Shown: positions 2,278-36,266 of the stretch, one piece after another
Numbering within the stretch: position 1 is the first letter of the stretch
Layout of the letters: every line of letters begins with the position of its first letter
NCBI RefSeq assembly: GCF_030908405.1
Contig: NZ_CP133089.1
Location: forward strand, 1,240,001-1,304,000
Length of the DNA: 64,000 nucleotides
Direction: 5' to 3'
Source: Aminobacterium sp. MB27-C1
Lineage (GTDB): Bacteria > Synergistota > Synergistia > Synergistales > Aminobacteriaceae
Made by a program: the position numbers and the translations under genes
The notes under the pieces: model-generated
What the model was told of the DNA's origin: nothing
Database searches by the model: none
The model's input: the letters and a program-made list of their open reading frames with translations, nothing else

Positions 2278-3363
2278 TTACAGACTCTCCCTTCGCGTCA
2301 ACGAGATTAAAACGTCCCAGATCCTTTTACTGCTGTTACTCTCATAACTATCTGGTCGTCTCCCGTTAAGCCTCATGCAATCGTGAGCTTTTGTTATACA
2401 GTCTATGAGATGTTGTTTAAGTTCATGCTTGGACGCATGTTCATCCCACACAATATTTCCAGTCATTTGTTCAAATAAGGCTGCATTCCTCTCTTGGTGG
2501 CCATCAGAAGCGCCACGCCACGGAACGATAAGAGAAGGAACACCGAGAACCATTAATTCCGCAAGGGTAGATGCCCCTGCTCTCGCTATGACAGTATCTA
2601 CAACCGAATAGATTATAGACATATCCCACTGTCTTTCAACTGCCACAATGGTATCTGTTCCAAAGCAACGTCCCTTACCGCCTACGACAAGAAAAGTTAC
2701 ATCGTTAAGATCAGACTCTTTTGCTAATTCACATATTGTTTGAAAGAGAGGGGTACTTGTAAGAGATCCACTTAATACACCAACGATAGGGCCTTTCGGA
2801 AAAGCTACCCCTGTATCTAGTTTACTCCAAGCTTCCTCACGGTCAACTATTTTAAATCTTCGAATTGGAATTCCCACGTGATTAAATTTACTTTTTCCCA
2901 GAGGATAGCACTCTGTCCATCCCGCAAGGATTGGAATTCCAAGCTTTTTCGCTATTCGTGTCACTTTACCAGCTATAGAATTTTGTTCATGAATTATTAC
3001 AGGAACTTTGCAAAGCAAACATGCTAACATCGGAGGAAAAGAAACATATCCTCCAAAAAGAACACACACATCCGGCCGATCTTTTCTCAAAAAACGCAAC
3101 ATCTTAAAAAAGGCCGAAAAAAGGCTCAACGTGCGATGAATGATTTTTCTCATCTTTAATATTCCAAGAGGAGAACCTTCAACCGGCAAAATTTCAGGAG
3201 TTATCCCGCAACCTTTATATATTTCTCTTTCCAAAAGTCTTGATCCACATATATACGTAATATCGACAGGGTTATCGATATTTTCTTTCATCCAATTACC
3301 TAATGAAACAGCTGGGAAAATATGTCCGCCTGTTCCTCCTGCCACAAAAACTGCTTTTTTCAT
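2278..3363 (-). CDS. murG: UDP-GlcNAc:lipid I N-acetylglucosaminyltransferase MurG
   Basis: MurG transfers GlcNAc to lipid I at the inner face of the cytoplasmic membrane, making lipid II. The start chosen is the ATG at 3363, which overlaps the ftsW stop as ATGA and begins MKKAVFVAGGTGGHIFPA. The open frame continues 19 codons upstream inside ftsW, but that part is not MurG-like. The glycine-rich GGTGGH (9-14) and a C-terminal donor-site region with DGHQERNA are visible. At about 361 residues the length is normal. The overlap suggests translational coupling to ftsW. Confidence 0.95.
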   Translation of the reverse strand: MKKAVFVAGGTGGHIFPAVSLGNWMKENIDNPVDITYICGSRLLEREIYKGCGITPEILPVEGSPLGILKMRKIIHRTLSLFSAFFKMLRFLRKDRPDVCVLFGGYVSFPPMLACLLCKVPVIIHEQNSIAGKVTRIAKKLGIPILAGWTECYPLGKSKFNHVGIPIRRFKIVDREEAWSKLDTGVAFPKGPIVGVLSGSLTSTPLFQTICELAKESDLNDVTFLVVGGKGRCFGTDTIVAVERQWDMSIIYSVVDTVIARAGASTLAELMVLGVPSLIVPWRGASDGHQERNAALFEQMTGNIVWDEHASKHELKQHLIDCITKAHDCMRLNGRRPDSYESNSSKRIWDVLISLTRRESL

Positions 3364-4460
3364 GACTGTACACCTACTATCTCTTTCGTTATGCGAACAA
3401 TAAGGCCTGCTCGCACCCACATCATGAGCAAGGAACTTCCCCCATAGCTCACAAATGGCAACGGCATACCGGTTAATGGCATCAACTTCGTTACACCGCC
3501 GACATTAATAAAAAAGGGCAACAAGACAGAAATTACAAGCCCCCATAGAAGCGTTCTCATAAAAAAGTCAGAAGTATTTCTATAGACTCTATAACATCTC
3601 CACGTCCAGAACGCAAAAAGAAAAACAACTAGAAACGTTCCTATAAAGCCAAATTCTTCCCCTATTGCCGCAAAAATATAGTCCGTATGAGCAGCAGGAA
3701 GATAGTTCATTTTTTGTAGTCCTTTCCCAACACCTACACCAATAAGCCCTCCATTAGCGAAAGCTACAAGCCCCTGTATAACCTGAAATCCACTATCTAA
3801 AGGTTCTTTCCATGGATCTAAAAATGCAACATATCTACGGAAACGATAACTTTCTTTTATAATGACGGGGAAAAGAAGTGCCAGCCCCCCTGTTCCGACA
3901 ATAAGAGGATATCCCCATCCCTGACTTTCTACATGCACTCCCATGCAAATAATTGATAATAGAAGCATGCCGCCTATATCAGGCTGCATAACCAACGGAA
4001 GCGCAGAAAAAGCAATCATAGCCATAGTTATAAACCAAAATTTCCGAGAAGCCGTCTCTTCCGAGCGTGATAGACATTTGGACAAATGAATAACTGTAGC
4101 GAACGACAACAGTTCTATGGGCTGAAACTGAACAGGTCCCACACTTACCCATCGCTTCGCCCCACCTGCCTCAATCCCTAGTCCTGGAATGAGCGTTAAA
4201 AAGCAAAGAAAAAAAGCTAAAATCCAAAGAGGGGCGCTCATCCTTTTCCAAACACTTATCGGTAATAAATACATGGTAAACATGGCACATAGCCCAAGAA
4301 AGCTCCATTGGACTTGCTTAAAACCAATAATAAATGGAGATCCCCACACTTCCATAGACTCCTGAGAAGTGAGAGAAACGATCATCACCAGCCCTAAACA
4401 ATTAAGGACAAGGGGAATGATCCATAAAAGAGGATCTACGCGTGGTATTTTTTCGATCAC
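3360..4460 (-). CDS. ftsW: Peptidoglycan glycosyltransferase FtsW (SEDS family)
   Basis: A polytopic membrane protein of the SEDS family that polymerises lipid II glycan at the septum with its partner class B penicillin-binding protein. The 366 residues contain about ten hydrophobic segments. The family block PAAHTDYIFAAIGEEFG (about 255-271) includes the presumed catalytic Asp near 260, and PLTGMPLPFVSYGGSS (328-343) is the second signature. It starts with GTG at 4460, overlapping the murD stop as GTGA, and its own stop overlaps the murG ATG. Its place between murD and murG supports FtsW over RodA. Confidence 0.94.
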   Translation of the reverse strand: MIEKIPRVDPLLWIIPLVLNCLGLVMIVSLTSQESMEVWGSPFIIGFKQVQWSFLGLCAMFTMYLLPISVWKRMSAPLWILAFFLCFLTLIPGLGIEAGGAKRWVSVGPVQFQPIELLSFATVIHLSKCLSRSEETASRKFWFITMAMIAFSALPLVMQPDIGGMLLLSIICMGVHVESQGWGYPLIVGTGGLALLFPVIIKESYRFRRYVAFLDPWKEPLDSGFQVIQGLVAFANGGLIGVGVGKGLQKMNYLPAAHTDYIFAAIGEEFGFIGTFLVVFLFAFWTWRCYRVYRNTSDFFMRTLLWGLVISVLLPFFINVGGVTKLMPLTGMPLPFVSYGGSSLLMMWVRAGLIVRITKEIVGVQS

Positions 4461-30484: not shown

Positions 30485-32638
30485 CTAAAACCTCCATCGA
30501 CAGCCTAGGGAGACTCCCCAATCCTTACTGGTGGTGTCGCCCCACGATCTTTCGGCATCAAGGTAGATCTGGTAATTCGGCGTGTCCTTTACAAATCCAA
30601 AACCCGCTACCACCTGGTCTCCTTCAAGAGTCGTCTCAAAACCTGTGCCATCCACCCGAACCGTGCTGTCTCCCTCGAATTCCTGTATCCAGCTCACCTT
30701 CCCGTATAGCTGCTGGCTGCCTCCTGATTCGCAGGCTCTCTGTCTACCGAAGACGCCACCAACTCGAAGCTGAAGGGAACGGCTTCGATCTGCCTCTACA
30801 TGAAGACCATTCTCGCTGATGTAATCGGCGCTTCCCGCCCAAAAGCCTGAGACCTCCATCTGCGGTTCCACAAAGTAACCATCTCGCGTATCGATGTGTC
30901 TGCCAACTTCTGCTGAGAGTCCGAATCCCCTGTTCTTAAAAGAACCTTTATCGTAAGAGCCGCCAAGTACCGGGGTGGTAAAACTATGATCGAAGCTGTT
31001 GTATTTGCCGATAATATCGAGATAGAAACCGTCATCTCGAAGCCAGCTCTGGTAGAGCCCGGCATAGATGCTTTCTGTATCTCCTGAACCTCCGCTGGTA
31101 AAGCTGTTATCTGCTTCGGCATATCCCAAAACAAAACCGGTAAAGCTCTTTCCATTTTTGTAACTTCGGGGACGGTCCTTCCCCACTTCTATGCCATGAA
31201 TCTTCTGATCGTAGTCTGTTCCTCCAGATGGGCTTACACTGTATTTCGTTGCGTAGGTCCGTGCCCAGATATCGCCGCTGTTCTGACTTCCCATGCGAAG
31301 TTCACCCATACGCTTCTTGATGTCATTCATTTCGCTGTACCAAAGAGAATGAATGGCCGCACTTTCGTTCATAAGGCCACGAACCGGCGTCGATGGCGCA
31401 TAAGTATTGTAGAGATAATAGTCTCTCTCATCTAACCCACTATGAGTAGAAGACAAGGCCGAACCTTGTGCCACACCGAAACGATAGATACCGATATCAC
31501 TACCTCCGTCAAAGGTAGCCGTGTTGGTAGCACTGTCTCCGATGTCGACAACCTTTACAACACCACTATTCCCCTCGCTGTTGTTCACAGCCACATAGTG
31601 ATTGCCACTGGCACTGTTTTCAATATAGACACGGTCAGAAGTGCCGGCATGTAGGTCGGAATTGAGATGGAAGGTGCCGTTGTTACCGGAAAGGTTGCGG
31701 ACTGTCAGTGTTCGGTACGTGTCTCCGGTTGGGGCAGTAAAGCGGAAATGACCGGAACCGAAGATGAGATTTGTAAGGTTGGAGTCGCCCGGGGTTGTCC
31801 ATGTGGCGTTGCTGTTGAGAATAATGTTGCCTGTCGATGCACTACCTACTCTTGTTATGCCATAAAGCCAACTGCCATTTTCCGCAACAATATTAATTGT
31901 ACTTCTATCATACAAACTTCCATAAGAGGAGTTGAAAAGCATCTCACGTCCAATAATAGATTGACCATCAACCCTAACTCTAATCTGCCCCTCATATAAT
32001 GTCTCAAAAGCAATTCCTGCCGACTGAATAGCAACATTATTTAAGGAGGCTATTCCCCTAGAAGTAGCCATCACAGCATGATTTTCATTCCCCATTGTAA
32101 CAATGTTTCCATTATTCATGGTAATAGTTCCTTCCATTACGGCAAGAGCCTCACTAGACGATGAATTGTTATTAACAACAATGGAAACATCATTCAGTAC
32201 AATCGACGATGAGGCATTCTCCACATGGGCGCCGTCTCCCCCTAAACTTGTGATATAGAGACTGCCTCCATTCATGGTAATCATGCCTCCAAAATAACTA
32301 CCAACACCGTGACCATAAAGCCCCAAATTCTTAATAATAACGTTGTTAAGCGTAATGCTGCCATTATCTCGAGCATATGCACCACGGCCGCGTTCCATGC
32401 CTGTTTCAGTACTCCATACAGTAATCGACAAATCATTCATCGTAGCAGTTGTGTTCGAATTCTTCACGGTGAGTGCACTGCCAGTATTTGTAACAATATT
32501 GTCAGTGACCATGTGAGATTGCCCATCATCAAAAAGTAGTGGCCCGGTATCCGCCAAGCTCTTCGATATCCCAGGTACCATAAGCAATGTCCAAAGCGCG
32601 CAAAAAGCTAACAAGCAGTACCTTCTTCGCCTTATCAT
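30485..32638 (-). CDS. Autotransporter with beta-helix-like passenger
   Basis: A 717-residue outer-membrane protein. A signal peptide (basic RRRR start, hydrophobic core, cleavage near SLADTG about 29-34) leads to an Asn/Ser/Thr-rich passenger of short repeating strands (about 35-380; for example GNIVTMGNENHAVMATS), as in adhesin-type beta-helices. The last 270 or so residues are an autotransporter barrel starting around GDIWARTYATKYSVSP and ending SLGCRWRF with a terminal phenylalanine. No protease or lipase motif is visible, so an adhesin or surface-structure role is only a guess. The barrel half of the gene is visibly richer in G+C than the passenger half. ATG at 32638 follows AGGAGG. Confidence 0.88.
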   Translation of the reverse strand: MIRRRRYCLLAFCALWTLLMVPGISKSLADTGPLLFDDGQSHMVTDNIVTNTGSALTVKNSNTTATMNDLSITVWSTETGMERGRGAYARDNGSITLNNVIIKNLGLYGHGVGSYFGGMITMNGGSLYITSLGGDGAHVENASSSIVLNDVSIVVNNNSSSSEALAVMEGTITMNNGNIVTMGNENHAVMATSRGIASLNNVAIQSAGIAFETLYEGQIRVRVDGQSIIGREMLFNSSYGSLYDRSTINIVAENGSWLYGITRVGSASTGNIILNSNATWTTPGDSNLTNLIFGSGHFRFTAPTGDTYRTLTVRNLSGNNGTFHLNSDLHAGTSDRVYIENSASGNHYVAVNNSEGNSGVVKVVDIGDSATNTATFDGGSDIGIYRFGVAQGSALSSTHSGLDERDYYLYNTYAPSTPVRGLMNESAAIHSLWYSEMNDIKKRMGELRMGSQNSGDIWARTYATKYSVSPSGGTDYDQKIHGIEVGKDRPRSYKNGKSFTGFVLGYAEADNSFTSGGSGDTESIYAGLYQSWLRDDGFYLDIIGKYNSFDHSFTTPVLGGSYDKGSFKNRGFGLSAEVGRHIDTRDGYFVEPQMEVSGFWAGSADYISENGLHVEADRSRSLQLRVGGVFGRQRACESGGSQQLYGKVSWIQEFEGDSTVRVDGTGFETTLEGDQVVAGFGFVKDTPNYQIYLDAERSWGDTTSKDWGVSLGCRWRF

Positions 32639-34504: not shown

Positions 34505-34936
34505 TCACAATACAAGCATATCATTCTCGTCAAATGACCAAGAAGGATTATATGCAACCTCCCAATAATAGCCATTTGGATCGATAAAATAACCGCTATA
34601 ACCACCCCAGAAAACTCTTTGCGGTTCTTTGGCTATAGTTGCTCCTGCTTTTTTTGCAAGATCCATAATTTCATGTACCTCAGCCTCATTTTTCACATTG
34701 TAAGCTAAAGTAATTCCTGCAAAACCAGAAGCGATCTGTGGCGGATTCATCTCATTGATATCTTCAGCTAGAAGTTCCAATGGATATAATTCGAATTTTG
34801 TTCCGGTAGTGTTAAAGAAAATAACTTTCGGTTCATCTTCTGTTACATCAGTAGAAAAACCTAGCCCGTCACGGTAGAAACGAATTGACTGGGCCATATC
34901 CTTTACACCGAGACAAATAATACTAATCCTATTCAC
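34505..34936 (-). CDS. Glyoxalase/VOC-family protein
   Basis: A 143-residue protein of the vicinal oxygen chelate fold with the two beta-alpha-beta modules: IICLGVKDMAQSIRFYRDGL at the start, and GYSGYFIDPNGYYWEVAYNP near 110-129. A Glu in YWEV is a likely metal ligand. The specific reaction cannot be told; bleomycin-resistance-like, lyase and dioxygenase members all look like this. GTG at 34936 follows AAAGGGGAG. A perfect TATAAT lies about 70 bases upstream, just beyond the group II intron 3' end, without a good -35. Confidence 0.82.
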   Translation of the reverse strand: MNRISIICLGVKDMAQSIRFYRDGLGFSTDVTEDEPKVIFFNTTGTKFELYPLELLAEDINEMNPPQIASGFAGITLAYNVKNEAEVHEIMDLAKKAGATIAKEPQRVFWGGYSGYFIDPNGYYWEVAYNPSWSFDENDMLVL

Positions 34937-35018: not shown

Positions 35019-35336
35019 ATCGGGTAGGAGGCTAAGCAACTAGTTGGTCAGCCGACCTCCCACAGCACCGTACGTACCGTTCGGTATACGACGCTTCCAA
35101 ATATCCGCCACATTTACACCTTCTGATTTCGTGTAGCTATTGGGCTTTGACTTGTTATGCAGCCTTACCCTCAGAAGATTGCCTGATGTGATTCCTGTTC
35201 GTCAGACCGGAGGTTTGCCGCCAGCTTCCTTCAGATCCCACCTCGCGATAGACACCCTTGCTCTTGGCTATGTGCTTGCCGCTACAGGCCGCACTCGGGA
35301 CTTTCACCCGTTAGATTGCGCCCATGCTGGGCGCAC
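35019..35336 (-). mobile_element. ORF-less group II intron (about 318 nt)
   Basis: The minus strand begins GTGCGCCCAGCATGGGCGC, the standard 5' end of bacterial group II introns, and continues with CGGGTGAAAGTCCCG. Near the 3' end, domain V is complete (35064-35095): AGC GTC GTA TACC, loop GAAC, GGTA, a CG bulge, then TAC GGT GCT, with all arms paired and the catalytic AGC triad. Domain VI follows, with GGGAGG (35061-35056) pairing to CC-U-ACCC and an unpaired A at 35025, seven bases from the 3' end CCCGAT. The whole is far too short for the intron-encoded reverse transcriptase, and none is found. Domain I may also be shortened. It sits immediately after a terminator hairpin, as terminator-targeting group IIC introns do, but the class was not determined. 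Confidence 0.85.
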
Positions 35337-35339
35337 ATA

Positions 35340-35369
35340 AAAAACTCCTAGCAAAACTAGGAGTTTTTA
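35340..35369 (-). terminator. Terminator hairpin at the 5' boundary of the group II intron
   Basis: AAAAACTCCTAG and CTAGGAGTTTTT flank a five-base loop. On the minus strand the stem is followed by TTTTTTAT and then directly by the intron 5' end. It lies just after the stop of the decayed RlmD-like tail and would be that gene's terminator. Confidence 0.8.
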
Positions 35370-35376
35370 GAGCAGG

Positions 35377-35517: not shown

Positions 35518-36045
35518 TTATATTCTCAAAATATATTCTCTACTTTCAAATTCCACATCTCCACTAAACTTAGAATACTTCCCATCCTTTAGATAGACGA
35601 ACCCCATCTTTTCTAATATATGTCTAGATGCTAAATTCTTTTTTGCATGTTTTGCAAACAACTCATTTATTCCCAATTGTGATTTAGCAAAATGTATTAT
35701 CTTTTCAACAGCTTCAGATATAATGCCTTGACCCCAATACTGACGCATAATAATATATCCGATTTCATACATTTTTACTTTTGGATTATAAGTTATACCA
35801 CCTGATCCTATTAAAGCACCCGTCTTCTTTAATTCAAGTCCCCACGTATAGTTCTTATCGTTATAGATTAACTTTTCTTCTGCATTTAGCCACTCTTTAG
35901 TAACATTTATGTTTGTATGCATATCCCATTCCATATATTTGGTGGTCTCAGAGTCACTACTCCAATTCTTAAAGACTTCTTCTGCGTCATCAATTTTTAA
36001 AAGTCTTAATATTAATCTGTCTGTTTCTAATATTGGTGTTATCAT
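35518..36045 (-). CDS. GNAT acetyltransferase, RimJ/RimL type
   Basis: A 175-residue acetyltransferase. It opens ILETDRLILRLLKIDDAEEV (about 5-24), the usual start of the RimJ/RimL and ribosomal-protein-type GNAT group, and has the acetyl-CoA loop region MRQYWGQGIISEAVEKII (about 99-116) and ASRHILEKMGFVYL. Its substrate is unknown. It lies in the degraded pocket between the intron and the IS fragment but looks intact. ATG at 36045. Confidence 0.85.
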   Translation of the reverse strand: MITPILETDRLILRLLKIDDAEEVFKNWSSDSETTKYMEWDMHTNINVTKEWLNAEEKLIYNDKNYTWGLELKKTGALIGSGGITYNPKVKMYEIGYIIMRQYWGQGIISEAVEKIIHFAKSQLGINELFAKHAKKNLASRHILEKMGFVYLKDGKYSKFSGDVEFESREYILRI

Positions 36046-36119
36046 CTCTCATATATCCTTTCTGCCCCTTATTTCAATTTATAAAAGATTGTTTGATCAA
36101 CCTAATCTCTAGTGTAGGA

Positions 36120-36266
36120 TCCCCCTATGGTTACAAGAAACTGAACTATTGTCTGAAAGAGGATTATGGGCTGATAATCAACCATAAAAAAACTTATAGG
36201 CTTTTTAAAAAGCTAAATATCTTACGACCACAGCGGAAAAGAAAACCATACAGGCCAGCAAAGTAG
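36120..36266 (+). pseudogene. IS3-family transposase OrfB fragment (HTH_21 region)
   Basis: About 49 codons read SPYGYKKLNYCLKEDYG, then LIINHKKTYRLFKKLNILRP, then a basic tail and stop. This is the N-terminal helix-turn-helix region of IS3-family OrfB transposases (compare YGYR-x-L and INHKKVYRL). No DDE catalytic domain, OrfA or terminal repeats are found around it, so it is a relic. The interval 36046-36415 holds this fragment and otherwise nothing recognised. Confidence 0.7.

Follow-up and report, generated by a model that had tools for sequence, protein, structure and literature searches.

A 318-nt group II intron with domain I joined directly to domain V, probably a deletion remnant of a group IIC retroelement

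The DNA analysed here, referred to as the window, is a 64-kb stretch of the genome of Aminobacterium sp. MB27-C1. The host genome measures 2.43 Mb, consists of a single contig and is 99.95% complete. On the minus strand of the window, a GNAT acetyltransferase gene is followed by an intrinsic terminator, a 318-nt group II intron read from 35336 to 35019, and a gene of the VOC/glyoxalase family (Table 1). The two genes are listed for context only; the VOC gene is present in seven other genomes of the family, with 30 to 64% identity among the better matches. Two further features were noted in the window. An autotransporter gene (PF03797, 129.5 bits) occupies positions 30485 to 32638 of the minus strand, and a short ORF on the plus strand (36033 to 36266) carries an HTH_21 match (PF13276, 34 bits) and resembles a scrap of an IS3-type transposase.

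Table 1. Features at the intron locus, in the order in which the minus strand is read (positions are those of the window).
Feature	Positions	Strand	Basis and remarks
GNAT acetyltransferase gene, upstream (context only)	35518..36045	-	PF13302, 119 bits; ends about 145 bases short of the terminator hairpin
5' exon: intrinsic-terminator hairpin and T-run AAAAACTCCTAGTTTTGCTAGGAGTTTTTTAT	35337..35376	-	last bases TTAT = IBS1
Intron 5' end GTGCG and domain I	35096..35336	-	RF02001; begins with 5' hairpin 35336-35317; EBS1 ATAA at about 35158-35155
Putative deletion junction	35095..35098	-	D1 ...GGATATTTGGA joined to AGCGTCGTATACC... of DV
Domain V, GCGUCGUA/UACC-GAAC-GGUA-CG-UACGGUGC	35065..35094	-	RF00029, 38.0 bits, and pairing
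Domain VI and 3' end	35019..35064	-	RF00029; bulged A at 35025; fold of 35066→35019, z -2.3
VOC/glyoxalase-family gene, downstream (context only)	34505..34936	-	PF00903, 63 bits

An earlier note on this DNA had described a group II intron of this extent with no ORF, giving no strand, and had suggested a covariance-model search. Such a search detected domain I (D1): over the 64-kb window, the Rfam model of class IIC D1, RF02001, matched 35252→35081 with 126.9 bits (E = 1e-25; cut-off, 32 bits). The model of domains V and VI (DV and DVI), RF00029, agreed as to position, matching 35096→35019, but at 38.0 bits (E = 6e-6, relaxed threshold, 551-base stretch) the match fell just below the cut-off of 40. 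Both ends were placed as the note had them. The 5' end, GTGCG at 35336, fits the GUGYG rule and directly follows the terminator hairpin and T-run. The RF00029 match stops at the 3' end, CCCGAT at 35019, which fits the AY rule, and the unpaired A of DVI is the seventh base counted from that end. The 3' end of relatives is placed at the equivalent base by two IIC introns that lie head to tail, with zero bases between them, in another genome (locus L064, G162:C1:1289000-1292500, at about 2795/2796), where ...CTACTCGAT runs straight into GTGCGCCC.... Folding of the whole intron RNA was uninformative, the result being hardly better than that of shuffles (z -1.2).

The terminator hairpin of the 5' exon has 13 bp (-15.7 kcal/mol, z -4.6, fold of 35376→35337), and together with TTTTTTAT it abuts the intron. 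The sequence ATAA in a loop of D1 is complementary to the last four exon bases, TTAT, giving a 4-bp EBS1-IBS1 match with pairs judged by eye. In two relatives, L005 and L008, the equivalent D1 loop also matches their own, different exon end by the same inspection. The exons without the intron would join as ...TTTTTTAT followed by TACCGC..., and the empty terminator would read ...TTTTTTATTACCGC.... In a DNA-level search, the flanks of the locus had no syntenic counterpart in either of the two further genomes of the genus.

The earlier note had left the class of the intron unfixed. RF02001, the terminator site and the EBS1-IBS1 match all point to group IIC. Moreover, D1 is 68 to 76% identical to the D1 of IIC introns from the same phylum and from Alkalihalophilus plasmids. 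On this sequence evidence, we assign the intron by descent to group IIC. Its D1 score compares with 137 to 154 bits in most phylum relatives and 102 to 116 bits in L009, L034, L035 and L070; going by these scores, the decay of D1 appears moderate.

A TATAAT just past the 3' end had been put forward as a possible influence on the VOC gene. The box is indeed present, about 14 to 19 bases beyond the intron, but any influence on the gene would be hypothetical: it is a lone -10-like box that lacks a suitably spaced -35 match, and it is absent from the list of a consensus promoter scan. Its position would suit a role of the intron sequence in cis, reused as a spacer, a 3' structure or a promoter part for the VOC gene, and a persistent intron fragment, FRE652, has been proposed to act in cis (PMC5894124). 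Given that no sigma-70-like promoter passes the scan at this box, and that no conservation is demonstrable because the locus lacks synteny within the genus, we consider such a role highly unlikely.

To call the intron ORF-less is correct but understates what is gone. Alignment with relatives showed that D2, D3 and D4 are all absent and that DV follows D1 with nothing in between. A single, clean gap in the alignment extends from ...TTTGGAAG as far as CGTCGTA, and at this gap ...TGTGGCGGATATTTGGAAG runs into CGTCGTATACC.... In most phylum relatives, the D2-D3 model RF01998 matches roughly 10 to 100 bases past RF02001, and D4, which may or may not contain a reverse transcriptase, comes next; RF01998 was found neither in the window nor in the whole genome. 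The intron also lacks the J2/3 motif AGCAGARGYCRTAGTA, which almost every relative read across this region has. The RF02001 match has full-length coordinates, and these hide the loss of D2 to D4 because its final 15 or so positions are bases of DV. In relatives, GGA stands at both borders of the gap (...TGGAGGGGAAAG on the D1 side and ...AAGGAACCGCC on the DV side), which would fit a deletion between short repeats. We also considered a split intron that obtains D2-D3 from another locus, and rejected it, since the genome contains no RF01998 match and no second RF00029 match.

DV is fully paired, as the earlier note had read it, with 8 bp, a 2-nt CG bulge, 4 bp and a GAAC loop. The AGC triad reported with it proved to be a register error within AGCGUC. 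When DV was aligned to RF00029 and to relatives, the triad was CGU, neither AGC nor the CGC of the relatives. The basal pair is G-C here versus C-G in relatives, with both sides changed, and most-conserved positions of DV that are near-invariant in relatives are altered. The exchange of both bases of the basal pair might point to constraint on DV. Viral contigs yielded neither this DV nor its form with the CGU triad and flipped basal pair.

A profile search detected no RVT_1 domain anywhere in the 99.95%-complete genome. The statement that no reverse transcriptase lies in the window was therefore borne out, and the proposal of a protein supplied from elsewhere in the genome found no match to rest on. 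ORF-less bacterial introns normally share their genome with a related intron protein (PMC4424553), and no such protein occurs in this host. The whole genome likewise holds no second match to RF02001. A DNA search of the genome returned the intron itself only; it is single copy, and the full-length copy with the same ends that had been envisaged was not among the results. These results bear on the idea of a live non-autonomous element that moves or splices with the help of an intron protein acting in trans. Clean ends and a canonical IIC target would be expected of such an element, and other members of the order have full-length relatives whose size would accommodate a reverse transcriptase. 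However, the genome has one copy and no RVT_1 domain, the fusion occurs in no other genome searched, and the intron has lost the portion of D4 expected to anchor the protein. We regard this possibility as extremely unlikely, and a live derivative served by a trans-acting protein was rejected for want of any RVT_1 match in the genome.

We searched for other D1-DV fusions with two junction patterns. The strict pattern matched none of the 84,980 species genomes and none of the 2.9 million viral contigs searched; of 15 candidate D1 ends from related loci, a set that includes some chance coding matches and the window itself, it fits only 6. The relaxed pattern gave nine matches in the genome collection and one in the viral contigs, and among the 183 genomes of the order it matched the host genome only (none in the other 182). 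Five of the ten relaxed matches were read, and none is a fusion: four are ordinary non-intron sequence, and the fifth, L090, is a real, normal intron in which the match lies in the ORF tail, 1.5 kb away from D1. The other five had no intron-family match at curated cut-offs. Both patterns demand the DV sequence ACGTACGGTG, and they would overlook fusions whose D1 or DV ends differ strongly; within this scope, the D1-DV fusion appears to have arisen once. The idea that fused mini-introns propagate as a family was unsupported, with no strict match and no fusion among the relaxed matches that were read. By its content, the intron would be a deletion remnant, and its exact D1-DV-DVI layout appears unusual, having been encountered once only.

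The intron shares its 5' GUGCG, D1 (RF02001), DV/DVI and 3' CGAU with group IIC introns such as the Oceanobacillus iheyensis intron and, within its own phylum, those at L061-L064 (G162), L058 and L009. Like them, it sits directly after a terminator and shows EBS1-IBS1 pairing. Unlike them, it is devoid of D2, D3, D4 and a reverse transcriptase and has the triad CGU instead of CGC. With ORF-less bacterial introns (PMC4424553; L009 in G012, L056 in G022 and L057 in G188) it has in common that both ends are kept and no intron-encoded protein is present, whereas L009, L056 and L057 retain the D2-D3 region. The latter three are ORF-less IIC introns of about 0.67 to 0.78 kb; the J2/3 motif is seen in L009, RF01998 in L057 and the variant AGCAAAAGGCATAGTA in L056.

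Taken together, these observations suggest that the locus very probably holds the product of an internal deletion in a normal IIC retroelement, now an immobile and most likely non-splicing remnant. A normal group IIC retroelement would have retrohomed behind the terminator, with IBS1 TTAT paired with EBS1 ATAA. We infer that a single later deletion, probably mediated by the short GGA repeats, took D2, D3 and D4, including the reverse transcriptase gene. D1, DV and DVI would have been left with both ends, without the J2/3 strand for the active-site triple helix and without the gamma-gamma' 3' contact. The remnant may be tolerated because its position behind the terminator breaks nothing. Bacterial copies of group II introns are mostly truncated or inactivated (PMC4424553). 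The triad and the bulge engage J2/3 in a triple helix, and the gamma-gamma' contact pairs A287 of J2/3 with the final base of the intron (PMC3669008); in addition, IIC introns depend on their own protein for branching (PMC7161350). Because these roles of J2/3 are lost and the protein needed for branching is not encoded, splicing is predicted to be very unlikely. The earlier suggestion of a live deletion derivative is thus not supported, given the loss of D2, D3 and J2/3, the altered triad, the single copy and a fused form found nowhere else.

A fairly intact D1 and the pairing still present in DV and DVI count against a dead remnant. Total loss of catalysis is uncertain because DI and DV alone suffice for minimal activity in another intron, yeast aI5gamma, according to PMC7912774, which cites Koch et al. 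1992. The locus might accordingly be imagined as a natural minimal D1-D5-D6 ribozyme, whose RNA folds and hydrolyses the 5' splice site, possibly trimming terminator read-through, with no full splicing. The preserved D1, DV and DVI, the intact EBS1-IBS1 match, a DV that is paired with its basal pair changed on both sides, and the catalytic minimum known from aI5gamma speak for this ribozyme. Against it stand the loss of J2/3 and D3, the CGU triad, the alteration of DV positions that relatives hold near-invariant, an RNA that folds hardly better than shuffles, and the occurrence of a single copy in one genome; we judge it unlikely. That a natural D1-D5-D6 intron should keep 5'-site hydrolysis without D2, D3 and J2/3, as the counterpart of laboratory-trimmed introns, seems to us quite improbable.

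Like the laboratory minimal aI5gamma (Koch et al. 1992, cited in PMC7912774), the remnant keeps D1 and D5, and D2 to D4 are among the domains deleted in both. However, the aI5gamma constructs are engineered forms of a IIB intron with demonstrated reactivity, whereas the remnant is IIC and any activity of it would be hypothetical. In its present state it is another example of a bacterial intron in decay. The deletion would nevertheless have left precisely D1, DV and DVI, the layout built by biochemists to ask which group II parts are essential, and the remnant offers a cheap natural construct for testing. It also illustrates that the presence of DV and DVI is no proof of an intact intron.

Other intron remnants differ in the parts retained. 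FRE652, the Sinorhizobium fragment (PMC5894124), is likewise an inactive genomic remnant with no reverse transcriptase; unlike the intron described here, which keeps both ends but no middle, it has lost its 3' part. A further type was observed on Alkalihalophilus plasmids (L034, positions 3008-3420, and L035), where IIC D1-D3 occurs without an annotated reverse transcriptase gene or a DV that has the usual sequence. Intron decay is also observed elsewhere in the genus. In a sister species (G001), two short fragments from the 5' end of IIC introns (GTGCGCCCAGCATGGGCGCA...) lie beside terminators, at about 1500-1560 of L026 and about 1505-1535 of L033, and one of them adjoins the repeated sequence TGCCAGGTCTTGAAATTGTGC and a gene resembling a REP-type transposase.
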